A stretch of DNA of 64,000 nucleotides from Oxalicibacterium solurbis (GTDB lineage Bacteria > Pseudomonadota > Gammaproteobacteria > Burkholderiales > Burkholderiaceae_D), in assembly GCF_014635845.1 (NCBI RefSeq), contig NZ_BMDP01000002.1:496001-560000 (forward strand). Reading direction: 5' to 3'. The notes beneath the pieces were generated by a model that was given only the letters and a program-made list of their open reading frames with translations, had not been told where the DNA came from and did not search any database. The position numbers and the translations under genes are program-made. Below, one piece after another: positions 12,926 through 38,252 of this stretch. How positions within the stretch are numbered: the first letter of the stretch is position 1; every line of letters begins with the position of its first letter.

Positions 12926-14380
12926 ATGTTTGCGGCAGTGGATTTGGGATCGAACAGTTTTCGCCTGCATATCGGCAGACACGATGGCGAGACGATGCGC
13001 ATCATCAAGAGTGCGCGCGATCCGATCCGCCTCGGTTCCGGGCTGGACAGCAAGGGCAATCTGACCGCTGCGGCGATGGATAGCGCCGTCGAATCGCTGG
13101 CCCGTTTCAATTCCATTCTGAGCACTTATCCGTTGAATGCGGTACGCGTGGTTGCCACCAACACGATGCGCATCGCGAAGAATGCCTCGGCATTCCTGCC
13201 GCGGGCGGAAGCGGCGATCGGCTATCCGATCGAAATCATCTCCGGCGAGGAAGAAGGGCGGCTGATCTATCTGGGCGTCGCCAGCGCCTTGCCGTCGAAC
13301 GAGCGCAGGCTGGTGCTGGACATCGGCGGCGGCTCGACCGAACTGATCCTCGGCACGGGGACCGAAATCGAAGTCGTCGAATCGTTCAGCATCGGCACGG
13401 TGCCGCAGACGAACGGCTTCTTTGCGGACGGCAATATCGATGCGGCCGCCTTCGACGCCGCCATCCTGTCCGCCCGTTCGCGCTTCGAGGATGCCGCGCC
13501 GCAGTACCGCGAGAAATCGTGGACGAACGCTTATGGTTCGTCCGGCACGATACGGGCGATCGCCGATGCGATTGCGCGCAACGGGATCGGCGACGGTGCG
13601 GAGCTGACGTTGAAAAGCCTGGAGGCGATGAAGCGCCGCCTGATCCAGTTCGGCCACGCCAGCCGCATCGATCTGGCCGGCATGAAGGCCGATCGCGCGA
13701 CCAGCATCACCGGCGGCCTTGCCACGTTGATCGGCATCATGCAGGAACTGGGCATCCGTTCGATGAAGCCGGTGGAGGCCGGCCTGCGGATGGGCGTGCT
13801 GTGGGATCTGCAATTGCGGGCCACGCGGCGCGACCGGCGCGAACTGTCTGTGCGCGATTTTCTGCAGCGCTTTCACGCAGATGAAAGCCGCGCCGATCGC
13901 GCCGCCTATATCGCGGCGACCATGTTCGCATTGCTGAAACCGAACGACGATGCCTATGCGCGCTTGCTGTACTGGAGCGCGCTGCTGCACGAGATCGGCC
14001 TGTCCGTCTCGCACAGCGGCTATCACAAGCACGGCGCCTACATGATCGAGAATGCCGATCTGTCCGGCTTCACCACGCGCGAGCAGCGCACGATGGGGCG
14101 TTTCGTGCTGGCGCAGAAGGGCAATCTGCGCAAGATCGGCGACAGCCTGGCAGATGCCGATTTCGCCAAGGCGGTGGTGGCTCTGCGGCTGGCAGTGACG
14201 CTGATGCATGCGCGCATCGATGTCACCCCGGATGCGGTACGCATCAAGATGAAGAACCGCATCGAACTGGAAGTGCCGCGCGTCTGGGCGGAAAGTCATC
14301 CGACCGTTTCCTACTGGATTTCCAAGGAGCCGGAAGCCTGGAGCGAGGTCGGCATCGATTTTTCGGTTCGCCTGACGTGA
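12926..14380 (+). CDS. ppx: Exopolyphosphatase (Ppx/GppA family)
   Basis: Ppx releases phosphate from the ends of polyphosphate; paralogous GppA proteins hydrolyse pppGpp. The 484-residue protein opens with the ASKHA fold phosphate loop DLGSNSFRLHIGRHDG. It continues with VATNTMRIAKN, EIISGEEEGRLIYLGV, LVLDIGGGSTELIL (second phosphate loop) and YGSSGTIRAI. The C-terminal third holds an HD-like helical domain with LLHEIGLSVSHSGYHKHGAYMI. AAAGGATC precedes the ATG. The Pho box upstream, and ppk 6 kb away, fit an exopolyphosphatase serving phosphate homeostasis. GppA activity cannot be excluded from sequence alone. Confidence 0.9.
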   Translation: MFAAVDLGSNSFRLHIGRHDGETMRIIKSARDPIRLGSGLDSKGNLTAAAMDSAVESLARFNSILSTYPLNAVRVVATNTMRIAKNASAFLPRAEAAIGYPIEIISGEEEGRLIYLGVASALPSNERRLVLDIGGGSTELILGTGTEIEVVESFSIGTVPQTNGFFADGNIDAAAFDAAILSARSRFEDAAPQYREKSWTNAYGSSGTIRAIADAIARNGIGDGAELTLKSLEAMKRRLIQFGHASRIDLAGMKADRATSITGGLATLIGIMQELGIRSMKPVEAGLRMGVLWDLQLRATRRDRRELSVRDFLQRFHADESRADRAAYIAATMFALLKPNDDAYARLLYWSALLHEIGLSVSHSGYHKHGAYMIENADLSGFTTREQRTMGRFVLAQKGNLRKIGDSLADADFAKAVVALRLAVTLMHARIDVTPDAVRIKMKNRIELEVPRVWAESHPTVSYWISKEPEAWSEVGIDFSVRLT

Positions 14381-16241: not shown

Positions 16242-16356
16242 GTATTGGCGCAGGGTTGTCCTATTGGAGCGCAATTCTGCTTGCCGATTGTGACGGGTTG
16301 ATGAATGGCGCCGAAGGCCGAAACCAAAACCGCTCGAATTGCATCGGCCGTAAGTC

Positions 16357-16385
16357 TTGCTTAAATTGAATAAACTATATATATT
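16357..16385 (+). promoter_or_regulatory. Sigma70-like promoter for the histone-like gene
   Basis: TTGCTT and TATATT are separated by exactly 17 bases in a strikingly AT-rich stretch, 32 bases before the GTG start at 16417. Their position argues against the longer open frame beginning at 16357. Confidence 0.6.
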
Positions 16386-16416
16386 ATTTATACGATTTAT
16401 TCTTGAGGAGGGTGGC

Positions 16417-17037
16417 GTGAAGGAAAATGCAGACAAGTCGTCGGACAAGCCGGCAGCGGAAAGGGAAGCGATTGCCGCTTCGAAGGACAAACCGGTAGCG
16501 GCCGGCAAGACATCCAGGACCGCAAAAAAAGCACCGGCAGTGAAACAGCCTGCAGCGAAGCGGTCGCCGGCACGGCAGCCAGCGAAAAAGGCGACGCCGG
16601 TAAAGACCGCTTCCGCAGCGAAACAGCCGGCACGCAAGACCGCAACCAAGGCGGCGACTAAAGCCACAACGCCAACCAAGTCGACAAAATCGACCGGGCC
16701 AACCAGGTCGGCCAAGGTATCGAAGTCGACGACGGCCAAACCGACGTCGCAGCCTGCAGCAAAGCCGGCACCGAAAACCCAGCCGAAGCAGGCCGAAGTG
16801 AAGGAAAAGGTCAAGAAGGCGAAGCTGGTACGCGACAGCTTCACGATGCCGGAATCCGAATATCAGGTGCTGGCGGATGTGAAGAAGGCTTTCCTGAAAA
16901 AAGGCGTCTCGGTCAAGAAGAGCGAACTGCTGCGTGCAGGCCTTGTGCTGATCCGCACGATGGATATGGGCAAGCTCAATGGCGTGATCCAGGCACTGGC
17001 ACCGATCAAGGCTGGTCGCCCTAAGAAGGAAAAATAA
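16417..17037 (+). CDS. Lysine/alanine-rich histone H1-like protein
   Basis: This 206-residue very basic protein starts with a GTG preceded by GAGGAGGG, a strong ribosome-binding site. Residues from about 25 to 140 are low-complexity repeats of Lys, Ala, Pro, Thr and Ser (AKKAP, AAKRSPA, KKATPVKT, KAATKA), like the tails of eukaryotic H1 and of bacterial Hc1/AlgP-type proteins. Such tails bind DNA or polyanions non-specifically. The last 65 residues are ordered: LVRDSFTMPESEYQVLADVKK, then SVKKSELLRAGLVLI, then KAGRPKKEK. This resembles a ribbon-helix-helix-like or dimerisation module. Its neighbours are Pho-regulated, so polyphosphate is an attractive ligand, but that is inference. Confidence 0.8.
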   Translation: MKENADKSSDKPAAEREAIAASKDKPVAAGKTSRTAKKAPAVKQPAAKRSPARQPAKKATPVKTASAAKQPARKTATKAATKATTPTKSTKSTGPTRSAKVSKSTTAKPTSQPAAKPAPKTQPKQAEVKEKVKKAKLVRDSFTMPESEYQVLADVKKAFLKKGVSVKKSELLRAGLVLIRTMDMGKLNGVIQALAPIKAGRPKKEK

Positions 17038-17106
17038 CGATCTGCAACTATTGCCTTGCGGACGGCAAGGCGCAGAAATGTACGGAAAAAATGTACGAAG
17101 ATACAA

Positions 17107-17137
17107 GGCCGGCGCGGTAATACGCACCGGCTTTTTT
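17107..17137 (+). terminator. Intrinsic terminator after the histone-like gene
   Basis: GCCGGCGCG, six-base loop, CGCACCGGC form a nine-base stem with one mismatch, followed by six T residues. It separates the histone-like gene from the Pho-regulated lipid operon. Confidence 0.85.
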
Positions 17138-17149
17138 CATCTGTTGTCG

Positions 17150-17193
17150 TGTCATCAAACTGACATGACGCTGTCATTTTGCTGAAGTAATCG
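17150..17193 (+). promoter_or_regulatory. Tandem Pho box before the lipid-remodelling operon
   Basis: Four consecutive 11-base units are readable: TGTCATCAAAC, TGACATGACGC, TGTCATTTTGC and TGAAGTAATCG. Units 1 and 3 are near-perfect PhoB half-sites and units 2 and 4 are degenerate. The strict 11-base period is that of PhoB dimers on DNA. The array ends about 40 bases before the ATG at 17234. Confidence 0.8.
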
Positions 17194-17233
17194 GTAGTTA
17201 CGCTTCGTCCCGTCACACTACAAAGGACGAAAC

Positions 17234-18001
17234 ATGCAGACACTGACGACCTCCGCCGATGCAGCCGCTTCCTCCTCGCGCCTGACGTTGAGTTTTGCCA
17301 GCACGCCGGAAGAAGTGCGTGAAGTGCAGCGCTTGCGCTACAAGGTGTTCATCGAGTCGATGGGATTGACCGCGCTTGCCAACGCGGAAGGCCTGGATCG
17401 CGACGAATACGACACCTATTGCGACCACCTGATCGTGCGCGATGCCGAAACGCTGAAAGTGGTCGGCACCTATCGCGTGCTGAGCCCGCAGGGCGCACGC
17501 CGTGCCGGCCGCTTCTACTCCGAGCAGGAATTCGACCTCGGTCGCCTGCATCACCTGCGCAACCGCATTGCCGAAGCGGGCCGTGCCTGCATCGATCCCG
17601 CCTATCGCAGCGGCGCCGTCATCATGATGCTGTGGGCCGGCCTGGCCGCTTTCATGCAGCGTGAAAAATGCGAATACCTGATCGGTTGCGCCAGCATCAG
17701 TCTGGCGGACGGCGGCCACAACGCCGCGGCGCTGTACCGCAAGGTCAGCGAAAGCAATCTGGCGCCGACCGAATACCGTGTCCGCCCGCATCTGCCGTTT
17801 CCGCTGGATGATCGCGACGCCACGCAGGCACCGACGATTCCGCCGCTGATCAAGGGTTACCTGCGCAGCGGCGCCTGGATCTGTGGCGAACCGGCATGGG
17901 ATCCTGATTTCCACAGCGCGGATCTGTTCATGATGCTGCCGCTCGCCAAGCTGGACAGTCGCTACGCCCGCCACTACCTGAAGGAGAGCCAGCCAGCATG
18001 A
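17234..18001 (+). CDS. olsB: OlsB-like N-acyltransferase (ornithine lipid synthesis)
   Basis: This 255-residue GNAT-fold acyltransferase belongs to the group that includes OlsB, which transfers a 3-hydroxyacyl chain from acyl-carrier protein to ornithine to give lyso-ornithine lipid. Supporting segments are EVREVQRLRYKVFIESMG near 25-43, DHLIVRD followed by VVGTYRVLSP, RIAEAGRACIDPAYRSGAVI around 115-134 and IPPLIKGYLRSGAWICGEPAWD near 202-224. These are the usual blocks of this family. It is first in a three-gene operon behind a tandem Pho box and overlaps the next gene by four bases (ATGA). No OlsA partner lies in the window, so the second acylation must come from elsewhere. Another N-acylated amino acid is possible as product. 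Confidence 0.75.
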   Translation: MQTLTTSADAAASSSRLTLSFASTPEEVREVQRLRYKVFIESMGLTALANAEGLDRDEYDTYCDHLIVRDAETLKVVGTYRVLSPQGARRAGRFYSEQEFDLGRLHHLRNRIAEAGRACIDPAYRSGAVIMMLWAGLAAFMQREKCEYLIGCASISLADGGHNAAALYRKVSESNLAPTEYRVRPHLPFPLDDRDATQAPTIPPLIKGYLRSGAWICGEPAWDPDFHSADLFMMLPLAKLDSRYARHYLKESQPA

Positions 18002-18864
18002 AACCGCGCGATCCCTTTCTGACGGCAGATTTCATCGGTGCGGACATCGAGTCCGGTTCCGGCAAGCGCGAACCGGTCCGCTTCCGCACCATCTGGATTT
18101 CGGACGTGCATTTGGGGACGACGGGGTGTCAGGCGCAACGTCTGCTGGAATTCCTGCGCCGTACCGAATCGGAGACGCTGTACCTGGTCGGCGACATCAT
18201 CGACGGCTGGCAGCTGAAGCGCCGCTGGTACTGGGAGCAGTCGCACAACGATGTGGTGCAGACGGTGCTGAAGAAGGCGAAGAAGGGTACCGAAGTCATC
18301 TTCGTGCCGGGTAATCACGACGAAGCGGTGCGCCAGTTTATCGATCTGGATTTCGGCGGCATCCGCGTGCGCGACGAACTCGTGCATACGACGGCGCAGG
18401 GCAAGCGCATGCTGGTGCTGCACGGCGACCGTTTCGACGGTGTGATCGCCTGCGCCAAGTGGCTGGCCTATGTGGGCGACAGCCTGTACACGATGATCCT
18501 GAAGTGGAATCAGTGGTTGAACAGCTGGCGTGCGCGCGCCGGCCTGCCGTACTGGTCGCTGTCGCAATACCTGAAGCTGAAGGTGAAGAACGCGGTCAGC
18601 TACATCTCGTCGTTCGAGCAAGCACTGGCCGAAGAGGCGCAGCGACGCGGGCTGGATGGCGTCATCTGCGGCCATATCCACAAACCGGAAATCCGCAGCA
18701 TCGACGGCATTCTCTACTGCAACGACGGCGACTGGGTGGAAAGCCTGTCGGCGCTGGTGGAAGAGCATTCCGGTGAACTGCGGCTGGTGAGCTGGCAGGA
18801 AATCGTTGCACCGTCGGCCGCCGCCAAGCAAAAAATGGAGGAAGCATGCGTATCGCCATCGTGA
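17998..18864 (+). CDS. plcP: PlcP-type phospholipase C (metallophosphoesterase)
   Basis: This 288-residue calcineurin-fold phosphoesterase carries all metal-binding motifs: DVH at 36-38, GDIID at 65-69, GNHDE at 105-109, HGD at 142-144 and GHIH at 225-228. Proteins of this type are often labelled UDP-2,3-diacylglucosamine hydrolase (LpxH). However, the segments TTGCQAQRLLEFLR, RRWYWEQSHNDVVQ and LPYWSLSQYLKLKVKNAV are those of rhizobial PlcP, which removes the phosphate head group of phospholipids during phosphate starvation and leaves diacylglycerol. The operon context (Pho box, glycosyltransferase downstream) agrees. The gene overlaps olsB by four bases and the next gene by 19 bases, a sign of tight translational coupling. 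Confidence 0.82.
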   Translation: MKPRDPFLTADFIGADIESGSGKREPVRFRTIWISDVHLGTTGCQAQRLLEFLRRTESETLYLVGDIIDGWQLKRRWYWEQSHNDVVQTVLKKAKKGTEVIFVPGNHDEAVRQFIDLDFGGIRVRDELVHTTAQGKRMLVLHGDRFDGVIACAKWLAYVGDSLYTMILKWNQWLNSWRARAGLPYWSLSQYLKLKVKNAVSYISSFEQALAEEAQRRGLDGVICGHIHKPEIRSIDGILYCNDGDWVESLSALVEEHSGELRLVSWQEIVAPSAAAKQKMEEACVSPS

Positions 18865-19883
18865 CGGATGCCTGGGCGCCGCAGGTCAACGGCGTCGTCA
18901 ATACATTGAAGGCCACGCGTCGCCAGTTGCGCGCGTCAGGCCACGCGGTGTTGATGCTGACTCCGGAAAACATGCGCAGCTACGCCTGCCCGACCTATCC
19001 GGAAATCCGGCTGGCCTACAAGCCCTATGCAAAAGTGGCGGCGGCGTTGAAGGCGTTCGATCCCGATTGCATCCACATCGCCACCGAAGGACCGATGGGA
19101 TTGGCGGCACGCCGCTATTGCCTGAACAACGGGCTGGATTTCACGACCGCCTATCACACGCGCTTTCCGGAATACTTGCGTGCGCGTTTCCGCCTGCCTC
19201 TGGCGATTTCATACCGCTGGTTGAAGTGGTTCCACCGGCCGTCGAAATCGGTCATGGTACCGACGCCGCGCATGCGGGAAGCGCTGGAACGCAGCGGTTT
19301 CCGCAACGTGGTGCTGTGGAGCCGCGGCGTCGATACGCAGCATTTCAAGCCGGGACCGCGCGAGGAATTGACGCACGAACGGCCGTTGTACCTGTACGTA
19401 GGCCGCGTCGCGGTCGAGAAGAATATCGAAGCATTCCTGCAGATGGACCTGCCCGGCGCGAAATGGGTCATCGGCGACGGCCCGATGCGCGAAGAGCTGG
19501 AGGCGAAGTATCCGCACGTGCGTTTCCTCGGCGCGAAGACACACGAAATGCTGCCAGCGTATTACAACTGTGCCGACGTGTTCGTATTCCCCAGCCGTAC
19601 CGATACCTTCGGCCTGGTCATGATCGAGGCGATGGCTTGCGGCGTGCCGGTGGCAGCCTATCCAGTCGAAGGGCCGGTGGACGTAGTGGCGCACGGCAAG
19701 TCAGGCGTGCTGGACGAGGATCTGTCCAAGGCCTGCTTTGCGGCGCTGGGCCTGAAGCGTTCGACGGTGCGCGAACATGCGCTTTGCTATTCGTGGGAAG
19801 AGGCGACGCAGCAGTTCGTTCGGCATCTGCATCCGGTGCGTCGCATCAAGCCGCTGCCGGCGGTGCGCTCGTCGATCGCCTGA
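18846..19883 (+). CDS. GT4 glycosyltransferase, probable diacylglycerol glycosyltransferase (Agt-like)
   Basis: This 345-residue GT-B fold, family 4 glycosyltransferase begins with MRIAIVTDAWAPQVNGVVNTL, typical of the Agt/MgdA/SqdX-like lipid glycosyltransferases. The donor-binding half shows LYLYVGRVAVEKNIEAFL, VIGDGPMREELE, and FVFPSRTDTFGLVMIEAMACGVPVAAYPVEGP with the conserved E-x7-E. Downstream of a PlcP phospholipase C, the expected acceptor is the diacylglycerol that PlcP releases, giving mono- or diglycosyl or glucuronosyl diacylglycerol. The sugar donor cannot be read from sequence; UDP-glucuronate would be available from ugd in this window. It is the last gene of the operon, ending before a terminator. 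Confidence 0.82.
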   Translation: MRIAIVTDAWAPQVNGVVNTLKATRRQLRASGHAVLMLTPENMRSYACPTYPEIRLAYKPYAKVAAALKAFDPDCIHIATEGPMGLAARRYCLNNGLDFTTAYHTRFPEYLRARFRLPLAISYRWLKWFHRPSKSVMVPTPRMREALERSGFRNVVLWSRGVDTQHFKPGPREELTHERPLYLYVGRVAVEKNIEAFLQMDLPGAKWVIGDGPMREELEAKYPHVRFLGAKTHEMLPAYYNCADVFVFPSRTDTFGLVMIEAMACGVPVAAYPVEGPVDVVAHGKSGVLDEDLSKACFAALGLKRSTVREHALCYSWEEATQQFVRHLHPVRRIKPLPAVRSSIA

Positions 19884-19903
19884 CGATTACGGCAGGAATG
19901 AAA

Positions 19904-19931
19904 AAAGCGGGAGGCGTTTGCCTCCCGCTTT
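19904..19931. terminator. Bidirectional terminator between agt-like gene and sixA
   Basis: A perfect stem of AAGCGGGAGGC and its complement encloses a four-base loop. Read on the minus strand it runs into six T residues, so it is strongest for the ppk-sixA transcript. On the plus strand only TTT follows. Confidence 0.85.
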
Positions 19932-19994
19932 GCATTGGGACACTGGTATTGGTCGCTGTGTTACTTCGTCATATTACGTTGCCTACTTTGTCAG

Positions 19995-20450
19995 CTATTT
20001 TGCAAGATCCGGCCCCATCACCGAACGGATGAAATGTTCGGCAACGCCTTCACGCTCGCGCTGCACGATCCACCAGATGTTGCCTTTGCGGATCGTCCAG
20101 TCCTGCGGTGCGCCGGTCAGCAGCGTGGCGGCGACCTGGCCTAGCGTCGGCTGGTGGCCGATGATGAGCACCGGCTCACGGCTGTCCGGCCAGTGGGCGG
20201 CGGCGAGTATTCGCTCGGCTGTCGAATCGGGGGCGAGGTCGGGAACGATCTTGAACTTGCGGTTTAGCGCTTCGGCCGTCTGCACGGCGCGCGTGGCGGG
20301 ACTGACCAGGATGCGGCAACTGTTGGGCAGGTTGCGGTCCAGCCATTCGGCCATCTTCGATGCCTGCTTGTGACCCTTGGCCGTCAGCGCGCGTCCTTCG
20401 TCGGGTTCACCCATTTCCGCTTCTGCATGTCGCCACAGGATCAGTTCCAT
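19995..20450 (-). CDS. sixA: Phosphohistidine phosphatase SixA
   Basis: This 151-residue histidine phosphatase of the SixA branch has the nucleophile motif RHAE at 7-10, the second arginine in SPATRAVQTAE and the second histidine in LIIGHQPTLGQ. The short form, lacking inserts, matches SixA rather than phosphoglycerate mutase. E. coli SixA dephosphorylates phosphohistidine proteins (ArcB HPt, PTS-Ntr). It follows ppk by only four bases and should be co-transcribed with it under the Pho box upstream of ppk. Confidence 0.88.
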   Translation of the reverse strand: MELILWRHAEAEMGEPDEGRALTAKGHKQASKMAEWLDRNLPNSCRILVSPATRAVQTAEALNRKFKIVPDLAPDSTAERILAAAHWPDSREPVLIIGHQPTLGQVAATLLTGAPQDWTIRKGNIWWIVQREREGVAEHFIRSVMGPDLAK

Positions 20451-20454
20451 TTCG

Positions 20455-22572
20455 CTACTCCACCGGGGTGCCCAGTATCTGCATCAGATATTGCTGCGCG
20501 CCGAACGCGGCCAGTTTTCCGCGGGGCTTTCTCTTGTGATAGTTGCCGTCCGAATCGAGTTCCCAGGCGTTGACGTTATCTTTCAGGTAGGGATTCAGGC
20601 CTTCGTTGATGACGCGTTTCTTCAATGCGGGGTCGAGAACCGGGAAGGCGACCTCGATGCGGCGGAACAGGTTGCGGTTCATCCAGTCGGCGCTGGACAG
20701 GTAGACGTCGTGCGCCAGATCGTTGCGGAAGTAATAGATGCGGCTGTGTTCGAGGAAACGGCCGACGATGGAACGCACGCGGATGTTTTCCGACAGCCCC
20801 GGCACGCCGGGACGCAGCGCGCAGGCGCCGCGCACGATCAGGTCGATCTTCACGCCATCGGCGGAAGCCGCGTACAGCGCGCGGATCACCGATTCGTCCA
20901 GCAGCGCATTCATCTTGGCGATGATGCGGCCGGGGCGGCCGGCCTTGGCGATCTTGGCCTCGTTGCGGATGGCGCGGATGAATTCCTTCTGCAGCGCGAA
21001 CGGCGCCAGCCACAGGTGATGCAGCGTTTTCGGCTTGGTCAGGCTGGTCAGGTGGATGAAGACTTCGTTGACCTCGGTGGAAATCGCCGGATTGGCCGTC
21101 ATCAGACCGAAATCGGTGTAGAACTTGGTGGTGCTCGGATGGTAGTTGCCGGTGCCGAGGTGGGCGTAGTAGCGGAACGTGCCTTCCTCGCGGCGGATGA
21201 CGAGCGCCAGCTTGGCGTGCGTCTTCAGGCCGACGACGCCGTAGACGACTTGCGCGCCGGCGCGTTCCAGCCGGTCGGCCCAGTTAATGTTGGCTTCCTC
21301 GTCGAAACGTGCCATCAGTTCGACGATGACGGTGACTTCCTTGCCGCGCTGGGCGGCCAGGATCAGCGATTCCATCAGGTCCGAGTTCATGCCGGTGCGG
21401 TAGATCGTCTGCTTGATGGCGACCACGTCCGGATCGAGCGCTGCCTCGCGCACGAATTCCAGCACCGGCTGGAACGATTGATAAGGATGGTGCAACAGCA
21501 CATCCTGCTTGCGGATGGCGGCGAATAGGTCGACGTTCGCCAGCCGCGGCGGATAGGTCGGCGAGTAGGGCGGGAAGCGCAGTTCCGGCTTCGATGCGTG
21601 ATCGATGATTTCGGACAGGCGCACCAGGTTCACCGGGCCGTCCACCGCGTACAGGCGCGATTTGTCGATCGAGAATTGCTGCAGCAGGAAATCGGACAAC
21701 TGCTGCGGGCAGTTCTTGGCAACTTCCAGCCGTACTGCAACACCGAAGTTGCGGCTTTGCAATTCACCCTGCAGCGCCTGGCGCAAGTTCTTCACTTCTT
21801 CTTCATCGACCCACAGATCGCTGTTGCGGGTGACGCGGAATTGCGAGTACGACATGACCTCGCGCCCCGGAAACAGATCGTTGATATGCGCGTGGATGAC
21901 GGAAGACAACAGGCAGAACGCGACGCCGTTTTTCGACAGCTCCGGCGGCAATTGAATGACGCGCGGCAAGACGCGTGGCGCTTTCAGGATGGCAATCCCG
22001 GTGCCGCGGCCGAACGCATCCTTGCCGGACAGTTCGACGATGAAATTCAGACTTTTGTTGACGACCTGCGGGAAGGGATGTGCCGGATCGAGGCCGATCG
22101 GCGTCAAGAGCGGGCGGACTTCGCGGTCGAAATACTGCTTGACCCAGGCGCGCTGTTCGTCGCTGCGATCCTGGTCGCGTAACAGATAGATGCCTTCCTT
22201 CGCCAGTTGCGGCAGGATACTTTCGTTCAGTACGCGGTATTGATGTTCGACCAGGCGGTGACATTCAGTCGCGGCAATGTTCAAGGCGGCTGAAATCGAC
22301 GGTACTTCGGCCGGTTCGATTTCCATATGGTTGTTCGCCAGCAGGCTGGCGATGCGCACTTCGAACAACTCGTCGAGATTGTTACTGACGATGCACAGAT
22401 ATTTCAGACGTTCCAGCAGCGGCACATGCAGGTTTTCTGCCTGCGCCAGTACGCGCCGGTTGAAGGCGAGTTGTGACAGCTCGCGATTCAGATAAATGGC
22501 GGACTTCGGCGGGACATGGGCTGGCACGACATCGAGTACGGCTTTCTTGTGCATTTTTCTGGATTTCTTCAT
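20455..22572 (-). CDS. ppk: Polyphosphate kinase 1
   Basis: PPK1 reversibly polymerises the gamma-phosphate of ATP into polyphosphate. The 705-residue length and domain order (N, head, C1, C2) fit. SAIYLNRELSQLAFNRRVL opens the N domain. The two active-site histidines are His452 in GLKTHAKLAL and His471 in YYAHLGTGNYHP, 19 residues apart as in E. coli (435 and 454). IKQTIYRTGMNSDL and VELMARFDEEANINWADRLE belong to the C1 domain. Met7 is an alternative start. The gene is divergent from pstS, with its own minus-strand Pho box, and is followed closely by sixA. Confidence 0.97.
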   Translation of the reverse strand: MKKSRKMHKKAVLDVVPAHVPPKSAIYLNRELSQLAFNRRVLAQAENLHVPLLERLKYLCIVSNNLDELFEVRIASLLANNHMEIEPAEVPSISAALNIAATECHRLVEHQYRVLNESILPQLAKEGIYLLRDQDRSDEQRAWVKQYFDREVRPLLTPIGLDPAHPFPQVVNKSLNFIVELSGKDAFGRGTGIAILKAPRVLPRVIQLPPELSKNGVAFCLLSSVIHAHINDLFPGREVMSYSQFRVTRNSDLWVDEEEVKNLRQALQGELQSRNFGVAVRLEVAKNCPQQLSDFLLQQFSIDKSRLYAVDGPVNLVRLSEIIDHASKPELRFPPYSPTYPPRLANVDLFAAIRKQDVLLHHPYQSFQPVLEFVREAALDPDVVAIKQTIYRTGMNSDLMESLILAAQRGKEVTVIVELMARFDEEANINWADRLERAGAQVVYGVVGLKTHAKLALVIRREEGTFRYYAHLGTGNYHPSTTKFYTDFGLMTANPAISTEVNEVFIHLTSLTKPKTLHHLWLAPFALQKEFIRAIRNEAKIAKAGRPGRIIAKMNALLDESVIRALYAASADGVKIDLIVRGACALRPGVPGLSENIRVRSIVGRFLEHSRIYYFRNDLAHDVYLSSADWMNRNLFRRIEVAFPVLDPALKKRVINEGLNPYLKDNVNAWELDSDGNYHKRKPRGKLAAFGAQQYLMQILGTPVE

Positions 22573-22600: not shown

Positions 22601-22619
22601 TATGACAACTTGATGACAG
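22601..22619 (-). promoter_or_regulatory. Pho box for ppk
   Basis: Read on the minus strand the site is CTGTCAT-CAAG-TTGTCAT, matching the PhoB consensus at nearly every specified base with the 11-base period. It lies 30-47 bases upstream of the ppk start. Confidence 0.85.
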
Positions 22620-22659: not shown

Positions 22660-22693
22660 GCGTCATAAAGCTGTCACAATTGCTGGGTAGAGT
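22660..22693 (+). promoter_or_regulatory. Pho box and -10 element for pstS
   Basis: GCGTCAT-AAAG-CTGTCAC (22660-22677) is an excellent PhoB box. TAGAGT at 22688-22693 lies about ten bases further on, where the -10 of a PhoB-activated promoter lacking a -35 is expected. The pstS ATG with AAGGAG follows about 45 bases later. Confidence 0.88.
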
Positions 22694-22736: not shown

Positions 22737-23780
22737 ATGCGATTGAATCTCTTCGTGAAATCCGCTGTCATCGCTGCAGGTGCGGCTTTGACGATTACTT
22801 CGGCAATGGCGGCAGACATCACCGGCGCCGGCGCAACCTTCCCGTATCCGATCTATTCGAAATGGGCAGAGTCCTATAAAGCAGCAACCGGCACCGGCCT
22901 GAACTATCAGTCGATCGGCTCCGGCGGCGGCATCAAGCAAATCAAGGCCAAGACCGTCGACTTCGGCGCATCCGACATGCCGCTGAAGCCTGAAGACCTG
23001 AAAGAATCCGGTCTGATGCAGTTCCCTGCCATCATGGGCGGCGTGGTTCCTATCGTCAACCTGGAAGGCGTGGCGCCAGGCCAGATGAAGATGACGCCGG
23101 AAGTGTTGGCTAACATCTACCTGGGCAAGATCACCAAGTGGAACGACGGCAAGATCAGCGCGCTCAACCCGGGCGTGAAGCTGCCGGACAGCGACATCAC
23201 CGTCGTTCACCGTTCGGACGGTTCGGGTACGTCCTTCCTGTGGACCAATTTCCTGTCGCAAACCAATGCTGACTTCAAGAGCGAAGTCGGTGCAGGTACG
23301 GCCGTCAAATGGCCGGTCGGCGTAGGCGGCAAGGGTAACGAAGGCGTCGCCGCCAACGTTCAGCGTATCAAGGGTTCGATCGGTTACGTCGAATACGCTT
23401 ACGCGCACAAGAACAAGCTGTCGCACACGCAGCTGCAAAACCGCGAAGGCAACTTCGTCCAGCCTGACGACACCAGCTTCAAGGCTGCTGCTGCCGGTGC
23501 TGACTGGGCCAAGACCCCGGGCATGCAGATCGTGCTGACCAACCAGCCGGGCAAGGCAAGCTGGCCGATCACCGGTGCTTCGTTCATCCTGATGCACACC
23601 ACGCAAGCTTCGGCTGAACGTGCGAAGGAAGTCCTGAAGTTCTTCGAATGGTCGTACAAGAACGGTGGCGCAATGGCTTCCGAACTGGATTACGTCGCGA
23701 TGCCGGAATCGGTCGTGAAACTGGTCGAACAAGCCTGGAAAGCCGACCTCAAGGACGCTTCCGGCAAGGCGATCTGGTAA
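22737..23780 (+). CDS. pstS: Phosphate ABC transporter, periplasmic phosphate-binding protein
   Basis: PstS captures inorganic phosphate in the periplasm for the PstCAB importer. The 347-residue precursor has a signal peptide of about 24 residues ending AMA|AD. The mature N terminus ITGAGATFPYPIYSKWAE and the loops IGSGGGIKQIKAKTVDFGASDMP and VVHRSDGSGTSFLW line the phosphate pocket in this family. AAGGAG at a good distance supports the start. A Pho box directly upstream makes it first gene of a pstSCAB-phoU-phoBR run. The 98-base gap to pstC is longer than the other gaps, as is common when pstS is expressed above the rest. Confidence 0.98.
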   Translation: MRLNLFVKSAVIAAGAALTITSAMAADITGAGATFPYPIYSKWAESYKAATGTGLNYQSIGSGGGIKQIKAKTVDFGASDMPLKPEDLKESGLMQFPAIMGGVVPIVNLEGVAPGQMKMTPEVLANIYLGKITKWNDGKISALNPGVKLPDSDITVVHRSDGSGTSFLWTNFLSQTNADFKSEVGAGTAVKWPVGVGGKGNEGVAANVQRIKGSIGYVEYAYAHKNKLSHTQLQNREGNFVQPDDTSFKAAAAGADWAKTPGMQIVLTNQPGKASWPITGASFILMHTTQASAERAKEVLKFFEWSYKNGGAMASELDYVAMPESVVKLVEQAWKADLKDASGKAIW

Positions 23781-27357: not shown

Positions 27358-28047
27358 ATGCCCGCTGAAAAACCAACGATCCTGATTGTCGAAGACGAAC
27401 TGCCCATCATCGAACTGGTGACGTTCACGCTGAAAGGCGCCGGCTGGAACGTCGCTTCCGCGCAAAACGCAGCCGAAGCGTGGGAATTCCTGCAGCAGCG
27501 CCTGCCGCAACTGATCCTGCTGGACTGGATGCTGCCGGATCAGAGCGGCCTGCGCCTGCTGTCGCGCATCCGCAGCGACCGCCAGTTCAACGAACTGCCG
27601 ATCATCATGCTGACGGCCAAGAGCATGGAAGAAGACAAGATCGCCGGCCTGGACAACGGTGCGGACGACTATGTCACCAAGCCGTTCTCGCCGCGCGAAC
27701 TGACGGCACGCATCAACGCACTGCTGCGCCGCAAGACCCCCGAACATTCGCAGACGCTGATGAATGCCGGCCCGATCACGCTTGACCCGATCAGCTGCAG
27801 CGTCACGCTGAAGGGCGACAAGATCGATATCGGCCATGCCGAATTCAAGCTGCTGAAGTTCCTGCTGGCGCATCCGGAGCGCGTGTTCTCGCGCAACCAG
27901 CTGCTGGACAAGGTGTGGGGCGATCACGTCGTCATTGAGGAACGTACGGTCGATGTCCACGTGCTGCGCCTGCGCAAGGCATTGAAGGATGCGGAGCATC
28001 TGATCAAGACGGTTCGTAGTGTAGGCTATATGCTCTCTGAAAAATAA
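27358..28047 (+). CDS. phoB: Phosphate response regulator PhoB
   Basis: PhoB is the OmpR-type activator that binds the Pho boxes found in this window. The receiver domain (about 6-122) has the acidic pair Glu12/Asp13, phosphoacceptor Asp56 in LLDWMLPDQSG and the conserved Lys in VTKPFSPREL. The winged-helix domain (about 135-227) shows FKLLKFLLAHPERVFSRNQLLDKVWG and the recognition part ERTVDVHVLRLRKAL. The 229 residues match E. coli PhoB throughout. phoR follows after 18 bases. Confidence 0.98.
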   Translation: MPAEKPTILIVEDELPIIELVTFTLKGAGWNVASAQNAAEAWEFLQQRLPQLILLDWMLPDQSGLRLLSRIRSDRQFNELPIIMLTAKSMEEDKIAGLDNGADDYVTKPFSPRELTARINALLRRKTPEHSQTLMNAGPITLDPISCSVTLKGDKIDIGHAEFKLLKFLLAHPERVFSRNQLLDKVWGDHVVIEERTVDVHVLRLRKALKDAEHLIKTVRSVGYMLSEK

Positions 28048-28065: not shown

Positions 28066-29355
28066 ATGAGTCCACAGTTGCTGTTCTGGGTGCCTGCCGC
28101 GCTGCGGCTTTGCCTCGTCCTGATCGGCGCGGCAGTCGTCGCCTGGCTCTTCGGTCCGATTGCCGGTCTGGCTGCAGGTTTTCTCTGCGCGATCGTCTTG
28201 ATCCTCGTCCAGCTCAATTATCTGTACCTGTTGTCCGGCTGGCTGGATCGTCCCGATAGCGAAAAGCTGCCGGACGGCTGGGGTGCATGGACCGACATTT
28301 TTTCCCGTCTGTACAAGCTGCGCCGTGATGACGAACGCAACCGTGCCGAACTGAGCGAATGGCTGGCGCGCTTCCGCCAGGCGATGAGCCTGCTGCCGGA
28401 TGGCGTCGCCATCATGGACGACGTGCTGTTTCTCGAATGGTGCAATCCTGCCGCCGAGCGGCATCTGGGCCTGAACAACAGCCGCGACAAGGGCATGCGT
28501 GTCACCAACCTGATCCGCAGCCCCGATTTCATCGACTACATCATCCTCGGCCGCTACGAACAGCCGCTGACGCTGAGCCTGCGCGACCGTAAGTTGATCG
28601 TGCAGATCATCCCGTTCGAGAACCGCCGGCAGATCCTCGTCACGCACGATGCGACCGAATCCGAACGCATCGAGATGATGCGGCGCGACTTCATCGCCAA
28701 CGCATCGCACGAATTGCGCACACCGCTGACCGTCATCAACGGCTTCCTGGAAATCGCCTACAGCCAGCCGGATCTGGCGCAGGAAACGCGCATGGGGCAC
28801 CTGAAACTGATGATCGAGCAGGGCGAGCGGATGCAAAACCTCGTCGAAGACATGTTGACACTGACACGGCTGGAATCGATCGATTATCCGTTGCGTGCCG
28901 AATCCGTCAACGTCCACAACCTGCTGGAGCAGATCCTGCAAGAAGCCAGAGCGCTATCCGGCGGCCGCCATACGATTTCGTTGTTGGTCGACGGACCGGA
29001 CGTGCAGGGCAGCAGCGACGAGCTGCGCAGCGCCTTCAGCAATCTCGTTTCCAATGCCGTGCGCTACACACCGGAAGGCGGTCACATCGACATCGCATGG
29101 AAAAACGGTGAAACTGGCCCGGAATTCTCCGTCCGGGACGATGGCATCGGCATCAGCGCCGAACATATCGCGCGCCTGACAGAACGTTTCTATCGCGTCG
29201 ACAAGAGCCGCTCCCGCGAAACGCAGGGGACAGGCCTGGGATTGGCTATCGTCAAGCACGTGCTGCTGCGGCATGGCGCCGTGCTGGCGATCGAATCGGA
29301 GCCGGAGCAGGGCAGCACGTTTACCGTGCGTTTTAATTCCCCATCCTTTAGCTGA
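28066..29355 (+). CDS. phoR: Phosphate regulon sensor kinase PhoR
   Basis: PhoR phosphorylates PhoB under phosphate limitation. The 429-residue protein has two closely spaced N-terminal membrane helices (about 14-34 and 36-58) with almost no periplasmic loop, then a charged linker and a PAS domain (about 100-190), as in E. coli PhoR. The HisKA motif NASHELRTPLTV places the phospho-histidine at 215. The ATPase domain has N box NLVSNAVRYTPEGG, G1 DDGIGI, and GTGLGLAIVKHV. It is the last gene of the pst-pho run. Confidence 0.97.
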   Translation: MSPQLLFWVPAALRLCLVLIGAAVVAWLFGPIAGLAAGFLCAIVLILVQLNYLYLLSGWLDRPDSEKLPDGWGAWTDIFSRLYKLRRDDERNRAELSEWLARFRQAMSLLPDGVAIMDDVLFLEWCNPAAERHLGLNNSRDKGMRVTNLIRSPDFIDYIILGRYEQPLTLSLRDRKLIVQIIPFENRRQILVTHDATESERIEMMRRDFIANASHELRTPLTVINGFLEIAYSQPDLAQETRMGHLKLMIEQGERMQNLVEDMLTLTRLESIDYPLRAESVNVHNLLEQILQEARALSGGRHTISLLVDGPDVQGSSDELRSAFSNLVSNAVRYTPEGGHIDIAWKNGETGPEFSVRDDGIGISAEHIARLTERFYRVDKSRSRETQGTGLGLAIVKHVLLRHGAVLAIESEPEQGSTFTVRFNSPSFS

Positions 29356-29540: not shown

Positions 29541-30722
29541 ATGCCGGAGACTAAATTGAAAATAGCCGTTGCCGGCACAGGTTATGTGGGGATGTCGAAC
29601 GCCGTTTTGCTGGCGCAGCACCACGAGGTTGTTGCAATCGATATCAATTCCGAACGTGTAACACTAATCAATCGCCGCGAATCTCCGATCATTGATGCCG
29701 AGATTGAGGATTTCCTGAAAAATCGCAGCCTGAACCTGAAGGCGACGCTGGATAAACAGGAAGCGTATGCCGGTGCTGATTTCGTCGTGATCGCCACGCC
29801 GACCGACTACGATACCGAAACCAACTACTTCAATACCAGTTCCGTCGAATCGGTGATCGCCGATGTGATGGCCGTCAATCCGCAGGCCGTCATGGTGATC
29901 AAATCCACCGTTCCGGTCGGCTACACCGCTGCGATCAAAACCAAAACGGGTAGCGACAACATCGTCTTTTCTCCGGAATTTCTGCGGGAAGGCAAGGCAC
30001 TGTACGACAATCTTTACCCATCGCGCATCATCGTCGGTGAGCGTTCCGATCGAGCCAAGGTTTTCGCCGATCTGCTTCTGGAAGGCGCGGTCAAGAAGGA
30101 TGCCCCCGTTCTGTTCACGGATTCCACCGAAGCCGAGGCCGTCAAGCTTTTCTCGAACACCTACCTCGCCATGCGCGTGGCCTATTTCAACGAGCTGGAT
30201 AGCTATGCCGCCACGCATGGGCTGGATACGCGCCAGATCATCGAAGGCGTCTCGCTGGATCCGCGCATCGGCAATCACTATAACAACCCTTCTTTCGGCT
30301 ACGGCGGCTATTGCCTGCCCAAGGATACGAAGCAGTTGCTGGCGAATTACCAGAATGTGCCGCAGACCCTGATGCGGGCGATTGTGGATTCCAATACGAC
30401 GCGCAAGGATTTCGTCGCAGATTCCATCGTTCGGATGAATCCGAAGGTGGTCGGTATCTATCGCCTGATCATGAAAGCCGGTTCGGACAATTTTCGGGCT
30501 TCCAGCATCCAGGGAATCATGAAGCGTATCAAGGCCAAAGGTATCGATGTCATCATTTATGAGCCTGTGTTGCAGGAGAAGGAATTCTTCCGGTCACGGG
30601 TGGTGCGAGACTTGGCTGCATTCAAGCGGGAGGCAGAGGTGATCGTTGCCAATCGCCTGGATGCGCAACTGGCGGATGTGAAGGACAAGGTTTATACGCG
30701 GGACCTGTTCGGTAACGACTAA
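29541..30722 (+). CDS. ugd: UDP-glucose 6-dehydrogenase
   Basis: Ugd oxidises UDP-glucose to UDP-glucuronate with two NAD+. This 393-residue protein is of the shorter E. coli/Klebsiella type. The NAD-binding motif [18 protein letters not shown] is at 9-26, [11 protein letters not shown] near 119, [21 protein letters not shown] near 143, the lysine-bearing [22 protein letters not shown], and the nucleophile cysteine in [15 protein letters not shown]. It is the first gene of the polysaccharide region. The product could feed the surface polysaccharide and possibly the Pho-dependent glycolipid enzyme. The ATG lies 11 bases after a weak GTAGTGG rather than a strong ribosome-binding site. Confidence 0.95.
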
Positions 30723-33287: not shown

Positions 33288-34409
33288 ATGAACAAGGTAG
33301 CATTGATAACGGGGATCACCGGGCAGGATGGGTCGTATCTGGCGGAATTTTTGCTGGAAAAGGGTTATGAGGTACATGGTATCAAACGCCGTGCTTCACT
33401 ATTCAATACCGATCGCATTGACCATATCTACCAGGATCCGCATATTCCCAACCCCAAGTTGATTCTGCATTACGGCGATCTGGCCGATACCTCTAATCTC
33501 ACGCGCATCCTGCAACAGGTGCAACCGGATGAAGTCTATAACCTCGGCGCGATGAGCCATGTGGCAGTTTCATTTGAATCGCCAGAATATACTGCAGATG
33601 TCGATGCGGTAGGCACGCTCAGATTGCTTGAGGCTATCCGTATATTGGGATTGGAAAAGAAAACACGCTTTTATCAGGCGTCCACCTCCGAGTTGTACGG
33701 TCTGGTGCAAGAGATTCCGCAAAAGGAAACCACGCCGTTTTATCCACGCAGCCCGTATGCGGTCGCCAAACTCTATGCCTACTGGATCACTGTCAACTAT
33801 CGTGAGGCATATGGCATCTATGCCTGCAACGGTATTCTCTTCAATCATGAATCGTCACGTCGTGGTGAAACCTTCGTCACACGTAAGATCACGCGTGCTC
33901 TTGCCAATATTGCGCAGGGTCTGGAACAAACGCTCTACTTGGGCAACATGGATGCATTGCGCGATTGGGGACATGCCAAGGATTATGTCGAGATGCAATG
34001 GCTGATGCTGCAGCAGGAAAAACCGGAGGACTTTGTCATTGCCACTGGCGTGCAGTATTCGGTACGTCAGTTCGTTGAAGTGGCTGCGGCCGAGTTGGGC
34101 ATCGAGATCGCATGGCAGGGCAATGGAGTTGAGGAAAAAGGCACCGTCTCTGCTGTTACAGGCGACAAGGCTCCGGGTGTTGTCGTTGGACAGGAAATTG
34201 TTGCGATCGACCCCAAATACTTTCGTCCGACGGAAGTTGAGACGCTACTGGGTGATCCTAGCAAGGCCAAGAATAAACTGGGCTGGACGCCGAAAATCAC
34301 CTTTGCAGAAATGGTGCAGGAGATGGTGGCAAAAGATCTGGATGAGGCAAAACGGCATGCGTTGCTCAAGGCTCACGGCTACAACATCTCTATCTCGCTT
34401 GAGAAATAA
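33288..34409 (+). CDS. gmd: GDP-mannose 4,6-dehydratase
   Basis: Gmd converts GDP-mannose to GDP-4-keto-6-deoxymannose. This 373-residue extended SDR has [29 protein letters not shown] at 8-36 (NADP-binding loop with the RR pair typical of Gmd). The catalytic STSELYG is near 127-133, with [10 protein letters not shown] following. [17 protein letters not shown], the GDP-mannose-binding part, is also present. AGGAGCAGC precedes the ATG. fcl follows after two bases, completing a GDP-L-fucose branch. Confidence 0.96.
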
Positions 34410-34411
34410 TC

Positions 34412-35392
34412 ATGCCCATGGAAGAAAAAAAGAAGCGAATCTATGTTGCAGGTCATCGAGGAATGGTTGGCTCGGCAATTGTTCGTGCATTAAACGTCCG
34501 CGGGTATGCAGATATTGTCACGCGGACTCATGCAGAACTTGATTTGACCAACCAAGCGCAGGTGGCTGATTTCTTTGCTTCGGAAAGAATAGATGAGGTT
34601 TATCTTGCTGCAGCCAAGGTAGGGGGCATTCATGCGAATGCCACTTATCCTGCGGAATTTATCTATCAAAACCTGATGATCGAGACGAATGTCATTCATC
34701 AGGCGTGGAAGACCGGCATTAATAAATTACTGTTTCTTGGATCATCGTGCATTTATCCAAGGCTGGCCACGCAGCCAATGGCAGAAAATGCCTTGCTGAC
34801 CGGACCACTGGAACCGACTAATGAACCATATGCAATCGCAAAAATAGCGGGCATCAAACTATGTGAAAGCTACAACCGTCAATACGGTACTGATTATCGA
34901 AGCGTGATGCCTACTAATTTGTATGGTCCGGGGGACAATTATCATCCAGAAAACAGCCATGTTATTCCCGCATTGATTCGTCGCTTTCACGAAGCAAAGC
35001 ACGCATCTTCTAAAGAGGTCGTTATTTGGGGAACTGGGACACCAAAACGAGAATTCCTGTATGTCGATGATATGGCCGACGCCAGCGTATATGTGATGGA
35101 GCTTGAACGTGAGGCTTACGATTTGCATACTCGCCCGATGCAATCTCATATTAACGTTGGTACAGGGGAAGACATCACAATTCGTGAATTGGCAGAAGCA
35201 GTTAAAGAAACAGTTGGTTTCATGGGAGCGCTTGTGTTTGATGCGGACAAGCCAGATGGAGCACCTAGAAAATTGATGGATGTTTCGAATCTGGCAGGGA
35301 TGGGGTGGACTGCCAAAACATCGCTCATGTCGGGACTGAAAAGAACGTACGAACATTTTCAGAATCCAGATTCGACCAATTCATCTGAATAA
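34412..35392 (+). CDS. fcl: GDP-L-fucose synthase
   Basis: Fcl (WcaG) is the bifunctional epimerase-reductase that turns GDP-4-keto-6-deoxymannose into GDP-L-fucose. The 326 residues include [17 protein letters not shown] near 10-26 (NADP loop), [36 protein letters not shown] with the catalytic Ser/Cys, [16 protein letters not shown] (Tyr-x3-Lys) and [23 protein letters not shown]. This is the standard order for the family. Base composition drops here compared with gmd, marking entry into the AT-rich part of the locus. Confidence 0.96.
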
Positions 35393-35396
35393 TCGA

Positions 35397-37211
35397 ATGT
35401 CACAGAAACCGAAATCGTCGCCCTTCCGTAAAATATGGAAGCTTCTTACCTCTGCAGAGAAGAAAAATGCAGCGGTGGTGTTGTGCCTGATGTTTGTTGG
35501 CATGGCGCTGGAAACATTGGGTGTAAGCCTCGTCATTCCAGCACTTGCCTTGTTCACTCAAGACGATATAGCACACGCACATCCCGGTCTTCAGCCTTTT
35601 CTAAATGCGATTGGCAATCCATCTCAAAGTAACCTTGTGATCGGAGGGATGCTGGTACTCGTTGGCGTTTATCTGGTTAAGACGTTATTTTTAGCCTTTC
35701 TGGCTTGGTGGCAGACGCGTTTTGCGTTTGGAGTACAAGCACAATTGTCGCAGCGCCTTTTTAATATTTATCTTGGTCAGCCTTATACCTTTCATTTACA
35801 ACGTAATTCGGCTCAGTTGATAAGGAATGTTTTTAACGAGGTGAACTTGTTCACCTTTAACTGCCTTCTTCCAGGGATGCTGATTCTTGCCGAATCGCTG
35901 GTCATGCTCGGGCTGTGTAGTTTGTTGCTTGTGGTTGAACCAATCGGAACGGTTGTCCTTGTGATGACATTTGGAGGAGCCGCCTGGGGATTCAACAAGA
36001 TGACGAGGAGTCATATAACGAAATGGGGAAAAGCCAGACAGAGTCATGATGGGTTGCGCCTTCAACACTTGCAACAGGGGCTGGGTGGTGTGAAGGATGT
36101 CAAGTTATTAGGGCGAGAGGCGGAATTTTCCAGACAATTTACGTTTCATAATTTTCATAGCGCTAAAGCGGCGCAGTTGCAGGCAACCCTTCAGCAGCTT
36201 CCGCGATTATGGTTGGAGCTGCTTGCCGTCGGTGCACTCGCGATTCTCGTGGTGGTCATGCTTATACAAGGGAGAGGACTTGACGGTATTCTTCCCACAC
36301 TTGGGCTATTTGCTGCCGCTGCTTTTCGATTGATGCCTTCTGTAAATAGGGTTCTTACCTCCATACAGGCTATGCGATACGGATTGCCCGTTATCGAGAC
36401 ACTGCATGAAGAACTTGAATTGAAAGAGAGCAGGCTGGTTGCAGCAACACCTTCGGATGGCATATTTAGTAACGCGCTGGAATTTGTCGATGTTTCATAT
36501 TCATACCCGGATGCGGTAAGTCCTTCCCTTAACCATATCTCGATAACAATGTGTCGTGGGGAATCAATCGGTTTTATCGGTGCCAGCGGCGCAGGAAAAA
36601 GTACGCTGGTAGATGTTCTCTTGGGATTGCTGCAGCCTGATCATGGTGAGATCAGAGTGGATGGGAAAAATATTCAAGAGAACCTTCGCACTTGGCAATC
36701 GCAGATAGGCTATGTACCCCAATCAATTTTTCTTACCGATGATACGTTAAGGCGAAATGTGGCATTCGGTCTGCCGGAAGAGCGCATTGATGATGATGCG
36801 ATCATGAGGGCGATAAAGGCTGCCCAATTGGAGGAGTTCCTGACCGGATTGCCTGATGGTCTTGAGACGATGGTCGGTGAGCGGGGCATTCGTTTATCAG
36901 GAGGGCAGCGTCAGCGAATTGGCATTGCGCGCGCGCTTTATCACGATCCTGGAATATTGGTTTTGGATGAAGCAACCAGTTCCCTTGATACGTCGACCGA
37001 GCAAGATGTAATGGAGGCAGTGCGTGCATTGCAAGGAAAAAAGACCACCATCATAGTTGCTCATCGTCTTTCCACCATTGCTCACTGCGATCGTCTGTAT
37101 CGATTGCAAGGTGGAATAATAGTCGAAGAAGGCGCACCCGATTCCATGTTGAACGATAAAACTGGTCCAGAGATTTCAACAGAGACGGGAATGTCATCCA
37201 GGAAGTCTTGA
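35397..37211 (+). CDS. ABC transporter, MsbA/PglK-type flippase
   Basis: This 604-residue fused membrane-ATPase ABC exporter has about six hydrophobic segments over residues 20-320. An ATPase domain follows with Walker A GASGAGKST near 395, signature LSGGQRQRIGIARAL, Walker B ILVLDEATSSLD and the H-loop IIVAHRLSTIAH. The membrane part is of the kind seen in PglK, which flips lipid-linked oligosaccharide, and in lipid A exporter relatives. It lies inside a polysaccharide locus that has Wzy and Wzz but no recognisable Wzx, so it is the best candidate for the undecaprenyl-PP-glycan flippase. This role is inferred from context. Confidence 0.85.
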   Translation: MSQKPKSSPFRKIWKLLTSAEKKNAAVVLCLMFVGMALETLGVSLVIPALALFTQDDIAHAHPGLQPFLNAIGNPSQSNLVIGGMLVLVGVYLVKTLFLAFLAWWQTRFAFGVQAQLSQRLFNIYLGQPYTFHLQRNSAQLIRNVFNEVNLFTFNCLLPGMLILAESLVMLGLCSLLLVVEPIGTVVLVMTFGGAAWGFNKMTRSHITKWGKARQSHDGLRLQHLQQGLGGVKDVKLLGREAEFSRQFTFHNFHSAKAAQLQATLQQLPRLWLELLAVGALAILVVVMLIQGRGLDGILPTLGLFAAAAFRLMPSVNRVLTSIQAMRYGLPVIETLHEELELKESRLVAATPSDGIFSNALEFVDVSYSYPDAVSPSLNHISITMCRGESIGFIGASGAGKSTLVDVLLGLLQPDHGEIRVDGKNIQENLRTWQSQIGYVPQSIFLTDDTLRRNVAFGLPEERIDDDAIMRAIKAAQLEEFLTGLPDGLETMVGERGIRLSGGQRQRIGIARALYHDPGILVLDEATSSLDTSTEQDVMEAVRALQGKKTTIIVAHRLSTIAHCDRLYRLQGGIIVEEGAPDSMLNDKTGPEISTETGMSSRKS

Positions 37212-38245: not shown

Positions 38246-38252
38246 GTGCGTG

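Follow-up and report, generated by a model that had tools for sequence, protein, structure and literature searches.

Do the acyltransferase, phospholipase C and glycosyltransferase genes that lie between ppx and ppk in Oxalicibacterium solurbis form a single phosphate-controlled unit for phosphorus-free membrane lipids, and how much of each lipid route would such a unit hold? We addressed this question in a stretch of 64,000 nucleotides (contig NZ_BMDP01000002.1, positions 496,001 to 560,000; hereafter the window), in which three genes, called here olsB, plcP and gt4, follow a Pho box. We consider it probable that they make up a PhoB-driven unit for saving membrane phosphorus, probably with translational coupling. 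By sequence, the case for the unit is strong and that for its regulation good; for the chemical steps, the amino acid, the sugar and the binding of PhoB we rely on homologues (PMC8528852, PMC4796936 and PMC3972451). Papers are cited by their PMC numbers.

The olsB-plcP-gt4 unit and its Pho box

The unit consists of the following features, each given with its basis.

17149 to 17188, + strand: Pho box of three consecutive 11-bp repeats, about 46 to 85 bases 5' of the olsB start (consensus matches; 12 aligned upstream regions)
17234 to 18001, + strand: OlsB-type N-acyltransferase (PF13444), which opens the unit (open reading frame (ORF) list, profile matches, identities)
17998 to 18864, + strand: PlcP-type intracellular phospholipase C, a calcineurin-like metallophosphoesterase (ORF list, profile match, residue conservation, identities)
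18846 to 19883, + strand: GT4 glycosyltransferase of the Agt/Agt1 type (ORF list, domains, identity to a P. aeruginosa glycosyltransferase)

The repeat units 5' of olsB, TGTCATCAAAC TGACATGACGC TGTCATTTTGC, follow one another with a period of 11 bp and differ from the consensus CTGTCATNNNNCTGTCAT at two positions in the site at 17149, one in that at 17160 and three in that at 17171. The 11-base Pho repeat that a first-pass annotation of this DNA had placed here is thus present, in triple form, and it is kept among relatives. With no more than one mismatch, the 64 kb contain two sites, one before olsB and the other before ppk, against 0.02 expected, and none of 100 shuffles reached two. The whole-window count at up to three mismatches (7 sites against 4.64 expected, with 20 of 100 shuffles reaching 7) was unremarkable and was dropped as uninformative. 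There is no second Pho box within the unit. The box upstream of olsB is the promoter feature expected of a member of the PhoB regulon, to which we predict that the unit belongs.

The three genes, all on the + strand, overlap as had been described: olsB and plcP share 4 bp (ATGA), and plcP and gt4 share 19 bp. Purine runs that may act as ribosome-binding sites were read before each of the three starts. No sigma-70-type promoter was listed across 16300-20100, which is compatible with a PhoB promoter and proves nothing by itself.

The sequence of events that we propose is as follows. When phosphate falls, PhoR and PhoB, encoded approximately 7.5-9.5 kb downstream of gt4, would switch on the promoter at 17149-17188. 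The OlsB-type enzyme would acylate an amino acid, most probably ornithine, with a 3-hydroxyacyl chain, and the resulting lyso-aminolipid would be completed by an OlsA-type acyltransferase encoded elsewhere. PlcP would release phosphorus from phospholipids by cleaving them to phosphoalcohols and diacylglycerol, and the Agt1-type glycosyltransferase would add glucose (or glucuronate) onto the diacylglycerol.

The acyltransferase and the proposed OlsA step

The acyltransferase matches PF13444 (Acetyltransf_5) with 123.9 bits, for a cut-off of 22.4, and its best family matches are two OlsB models. It is 43.6% identical to an OlsA-linked relative and 31.3% identical to an S. meliloti relative, and the solved structures held no useful relative. 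In an OlsB tree of 33 rows, the Oxalobacteraceae-type group holds together (100/97), with 15 of the 30 inner branches open.

Several points weigh against the proposed unit, and two of them concern its aminolipid branch: the acyltransferase reaches just 158.9 and 155.8 bits against the OlsB equivalogs NF052554 and NF052555, whose cut-offs are 350 and 320, and OlsA is not part of the unit. The two models look clade-specific, judging by their names. Because their cut-offs were missed, we kept the naming at OlsB-type; of the earlier ornithine-lipid assignment, the OlsB-type family stands and ornithine as the substrate is presumptive.

The same operon may instead act on lysine, glutamine, glycine or a mixture of amino acids, or stop at a lyso-aminolipid or N-acyl amino acid, so that its product would not be ornithine lipid. 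PF13444-type enzymes include GluB and GlsB (PMC11631085), the OlsB of Acinetobacter yields lysine lipids as well as ornithine lipids (PMC11828411), and the missed equivalog cut-offs, a weak FeeM match under its own cut-off and the location of OlsA outside the unit all agree with such a product. We nevertheless regard it as unlikely, in view of the OlsB models as best matches, with just 23.3 bits for GlsB, of an OlsA-clade gene in the genome, and of the neighbours of the orthologues in other families, where an OlsA-type gene adjoins olsB in seven of nine chosen OlsB loci without a nearby plcP. An OlsA-type gene also stands beside olsB on Methylomagnum and Kitasatospora plasmids (two records).

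Ornithine lipid is the favoured product, and a gene for its second step is a candidate only outside the unit. Three PF01553 acyltransferases are encoded (L004, L005 and L006), of which L004 alone (G000:C1:838188) falls in the OlsA clade. Its best model match is OlsA (125.6 bits, cut-off 300), and in the tree it joins the olsB-linked OlsA of other families (100/97, where the output warns of long branches). The gene stands behind an amidohydrolase-family gene (Pfam) that was read as dihydroorotase-like and labelled pyrC by eye, and no Pho site at up to three mismatches was found in the 3.3 kb scanned. The genome search for olsA suggested in the first-pass annotation therefore yielded a best candidate, unlinked and without a Pho box in that interval. 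Two other candidates were rejected as partners: L005 groups with PlsC-type genes beside an HAD-type phosphatase gene (labelled gmhB by eye), and L006 has a long branch and an apparent aryl-polyene-type cluster around it, the latter an impression. Since another genome (G002) has two such genes, one L004-like beside the amidohydrolase and one within its olsB cluster, L004 is not necessarily a relocated olsA.

A similar division is found in Acinetobacter baumannii, in which a Pho box precedes olsB, and olsA is unlinked, lacks a Pho box and is not phosphate-regulated (PMC11828411); the words plcP and glycosyltransferase are absent from the main text of that study. The earlier idea that both routes are packed into one unit needs correction: they share the unit, which contains just the first step of the ornithine-lipid route.

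Conservation and Pho boxes in relatives

A scan of named genomes returned 333 relatives of the acyltransferase, of which the best 80 were kept, nearly all labelled Oxalobacteraceae or its genera; the closest, at 82%, come from a Burkholderiales metagenome-assembled genome and from Herminiimonas fonticola. In 48 of these 80 loci olsB stands immediately before plcP, and gt4 also follows in 36 of the 48. The 4-bp overlap of olsB and plcP recurs at just this length in 44 of the 48 loci, and the 19-bp overlap of plcP and gt4 in 21 of the 36. The arrangement is therefore not peculiar to one lineage, as had been supposed, and in other families of Burkholderiales the same genes are grouped in other ways near ppk, ppx and pst.

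A link in gene content between the two enzymes also favours the unit. Among 120 genomes of the order, 57 have PlcP, 82 have OlsB and 49 have both; for the database family (116 genomes), possibly broader than Oxalobacteraceae, the numbers are 60, 85 and 58, with OlsB in 58 of the 60 genomes that have PlcP versus 27 of the 56 that do not. Fisher tests gave p values of 7.9e-5 (order) and 1.4e-9 (family), which ignore relatedness and serve as a guide only. In the 60 PlcP genomes, olsB lies directly before plcP in 33 and plcP lies 2-3 kb before olsB in nine; the remainder have the two genes on opposite strands within 10 kb (4), have them apart or on other contigs (12) or lack OlsB (2).

Pho boxes in relatives were scored against the published consensus, a match being at least 11 of 14 positions within 160 bp before the start, and the count for olsB covered 81 loci (the 80 named ones and L093). 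Such a box precedes olsB in 58 of the 81 loci versus 71 of 4800 random stretches, and in the same set it was found before none of 49 plcP and none of 37 gt4 genes. The positive controls scored 13 of 14 (pstS), 10 of 15 (ppk) and 24 of 41 (ppx), and no box preceded sixA (0/25), dedA (0/7) or the gene preceding olsB (0/50). Twelve upstream regions were chosen for alignment; in these, most of the block TGTCAT-n5-TGACAT-n5-TGTCAT-n5-TGAAGTAATC is retained, and the more distal flank has diverged. In the same order, a study of olsB and ornithine lipids has reported putative Pho boxes before olsB in 21 of 43 species of Burkholderia sensu lato searched (PMC7814305).

The other points on the negative side come from these comparisons. 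No plcP adjoins olsB in 32 of the 80 loci, and where olsB-plcP is present, a gt4 match fails to follow in 12 of the 48; the aminolipid and glycolipid steps are therefore separable. Among the loci in which olsB-plcP is not followed by a gt4 match are several labelled Undibacterium. In a scan of 300 bp on both strands, the best Pho score before olsB was just 9 or 10 of 14 in 19 of the 80 loci, 12 of which are Herbaspirillum-labelled, and at several of the weak-box loci the repeat is partly decayed in the upstream sequence. For other families, boxes of at least 11 were scored before just seven of 30 plcP and seven of 19 olsB genes, all seven of the latter among the nine chosen OlsB loci, as well as one of 23 gt4 and one of 11 OlsA-type genes. 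Finally, a Collimonas species with both an aminolipid and a glycolipid has been described (PMC11288634); the loci compared here represent that genus by other species.

Some of these observations would suit a mere neighbourhood without joint control, in which only olsB is under the Pho box and phosphate-independent promoters of their own drive plcP and gt4: a Pho match of at least 11 of 14 precedes olsB in 29 of the 32 loci without plcP, and the gene order persists in Herbaspirillum-type loci, where the boxes are weak. We judge this to be very improbable, given the conserved 4-bp and 19-bp overlaps, the plcP genes of other families that have a Pho box of their own (7 of 30) and the regrouping of the same genes in different orders elsewhere.

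Lipid enzymes and the polyphosphate neighbourhood

The remaining two genes of the proposed PhoB-driven unit would form its glycolipid branch. The phosphoesterase belongs to the Metallophos family (50.2 bits) and is 55.9% identical to PlcP of P. aeruginosa (L161) and 50.8% identical to PlcP of S. meliloti (L088). In L161 the next gene after plcP encodes a GT4 enzyme, and in L088 PlcP is found near an acyl-homoserine lactone synthase and a LuxR-type gene; from this context and the locus order, we take L161 and L088 to hold the characterised PA3219/PA3218 and SMc00171. The metal motifs noted in the first-pass annotation are borne out by D36/H38, D66, N106, H142 and H226/H228, which are invariant in 27 aligned relatives and presumably are the metal ligands of the calcineurin-like family motif. 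The genome has a separate LpxH elsewhere (262.9 bits to the LpxH model), to which the PlcP of the unit is 22% identical, versus 51-56% to PlcP relatives; its own score against that model is 41.8 bits, under the cut-off of 190.35. LpxH was rejected as the identity of the phosphoesterase.

Another reading makes the phosphoesterase an additional lipid A enzyme of LpxH type, the GT4 a participant in envelope polysaccharide synthesis and the acyltransferase a producer of an acyl-amino acid. In its favour are the Metallophos family, common to both phosphoesterases, nine matched PDB sequences that without exception are LpxH (best E 4.5e-7), a lipid A label in plasmid records and a polysaccharide-type cluster that begins at approximately 29.5 kb in the window. 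The separate LpxH, the identities, the Pho box and the recurring plcP-glycosyltransferase pairing speak against it, and we find it hardly credible. The label concerned is UDP-2,3-diacylglucosamine diphosphatase, the name given to plcP relatives in public plasmid records wherever they are labelled, among the rows listed.

The glycosyltransferase has GT4/group 1 domains (83.9 bits) and is 50.9% identical to the enzyme encoded directly 3' of P. aeruginosa PlcP, another P. aeruginosa match being just 31.4% identical, in agreement with the lipid-type GT4 proposed earlier. By its position, the P. aeruginosa enzyme is Agt1, which uses UDP-glucose only, and plcP and agt1 mutants are without monoglucosyl-diacylglycerol (PMC8528852). 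Judged by closeness to Agt1, UDP-glucose is likely to be the donor of the GT4 of the unit, and UDP-glucuronate is a possible one.

The glycosyltransferase behind plcP is exchanged in a few relatives. In L084 a monogalactosyldiacylglycerol (MGDG)-synthase-type enzyme is encoded after plcP in place of gt4, and a relative of it sits behind plcP in L169 and L170. In addition, a metagenome contig labelled Oxalobacteraceae has a single frame of 661 residues (L047:5355-7340) with Metallophos and MGDG_synth domains, which, coming from a metagenome assembly, is a candidate PlcP-MGDG-synthase fusion. The exchange and the fusion lend support to a pathway in which the product of PlcP would feed a glycosyltransferase. 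A small putative membrane protein without a Pfam match is encoded after the MGDG-synthase-type gene in L084 (8851-9327), L169 and L170, and a small protein at L010:3635-4165 resembles it by eye.

The P. aeruginosa plcP-agt1 operon (PA3219-PA3218; PMC8528852) likewise has PlcP followed by a GT4 enzyme and a Pho box, with 56% and 51% identity to the proteins here. Unlike the present unit, its locus (L161) has no acyltransferase beside the plcP-glycosyltransferase pair, and ornithine lipid is made from a separate olsBA operon (PMC9804370). In Pseudomonas BIRD-1, PlcP occurs together with OlsAB (PMC5082522). Marine plcP contexts of types 1-6 also place plcP directly before agt-type glycosyltransferases with putative Pho boxes; the partners named there are betaine-lipid genes and glycosyltransferases, and olsB is not mentioned as a partner in the section on genomic context (PMC4796936).

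Around the unit, the window contains the following features.

12926 to 14380, + strand: ppx, exopolyphosphatase/GppA-type neighbour (ORF and profile matches)
17108 to 17131, + strand: imperfect hairpin and, after it, a T run, placed 3' of the upstream gene and 5' of the Pho box, a possible terminator of that gene (hairpin listed on the - strand only; + strand T run read in the sequence)
19904 to 19931, no strand assigned: strong GC hairpin of 12 pairs, 3' of gt4 and before the convergent sixA, a possible terminator (listed on the - strand only)
19995 to 20450, - strand: sixA, phosphohistidine phosphatase neighbour (84.9 bits, above its cut-off)
20455 to 22572, - strand: ppk, polyphosphate kinase 1 neighbour with its own Pho box (profile matches)
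22602 to 22619, - strand: Pho box 5' of ppk (one mismatch)
22660 to 22677, + strand: Pho-box-like site 5' of pstS (three mismatches)
22737 to 23780, + strand: pstS, phosphate-binding protein neighbour (452.6 bits, above its cut-off)
27358 to 28047, + strand: phoB, response regulator and presumed regulator of the unit (296.7 bits, cut-off 296.2)
28066 to 29355, + strand: phoR, sensor kinase (397.4 bits, above its cut-off)

The pst-ppk-ppx setting described earlier is thus found, with sixA and ppk together covering 19995-22572. From pstS on, the order is two permeases, an ABC ATPase, phoU, phoB and phoR, ending at 29355; the names pstC, pstA and pstB follow from domains and gene order. The ppx gene has no upstream Pho site at up to three mismatches.

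Three further regions of the window were noted. Upstream of the unit, a lysine/alanine/proline-rich gene (16357-17037) without a Pfam or NCBIfam match was labelled phasin-like by eye, and many relatives have a conserved portion of it ahead of olsB. Immediately after phoR stands a UDP-glucose/GDP-mannose dehydrogenase-type gene (29541-30722), which probably starts a polysaccharide cluster and could supply UDP-glucuronate for the glycolipid. After Wzz- and ManC-like genes, the stretch 34000-54000 has a GC content of 0.39-0.47 versus about 0.60, with all its ORFs of at least 280 residues on the + strand, and looks like an envelope polysaccharide island.

In other families, gt4 directly follows plcP in 13 of 20 chosen PlcP loci, and in five of eight chosen loci (L163, L164, L165, L167 and L168) the order plcP-gt4-dagK-sixA-olsB is found with ppx and ppk. 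The loci L099 and L100 have gt4-plcP, ppk, ppx, olsB, sixA and pstS, with a Pho site of 13/14 before ppk in each and, in L100, two other ORFs between plcP and ppk. In L094 and L095, plcP-gt4 is followed by dagK and olsB; the dagK of L095, the one checked, matches prokaryotic diacylglycerol kinase with 103.4 bits. A Roseateles-type plasmid has plcP-ppk1-ppx.

As a tentative extension, which we hold to be somewhat less probable than its opposite, the lipid, polyphosphate and phosphate-uptake genes of Burkholderiales may represent one modular 'phosphorus economy' block that has been reshuffled yet kept together (plcP-gt4-dagK-sixA-olsB-ppx-ppk; ppk-plcP-gt4; here olsB-plcP-gt4 between ppx and ppk-pst). 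In the lineage of O. solurbis two Pho-boxed units would then have merged into one overlapping mRNA that couples aminolipid to glycolipid output, with OlsA as a constitutive partner, and phosphate salvaged from the membrane may be handled together with polyphosphate.

Phosphate-starvation responses through PlcP-Agt and through OlsBA have both been described before, and P. aeruginosa combines the two (PMC9804370); Pho boxes before olsB within the order are known as well (PMC7814305). Titles and abstract openings among the literature matches listed gave no olsB-plcP-agt operon and no link to polyphosphate genes; within that scope, the compact joint olsB-plcP-gt4 arrangement and its kinship with polyphosphate genes in relatives appear to be new. 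The lipid A enzyme label on plcP in public records masks the predicted role in lipid remodelling, and diacylglycerol kinase and the alternative glycosyltransferases are suggested as parts of the same module. Gene order links membrane remodelling to the polyphosphate genes, and the prediction that follows is that many relatives of O. solurbis, an environmental betaproteobacterium, would replace phospholipids by two kinds of phosphorus-free lipid at once, through one switch.

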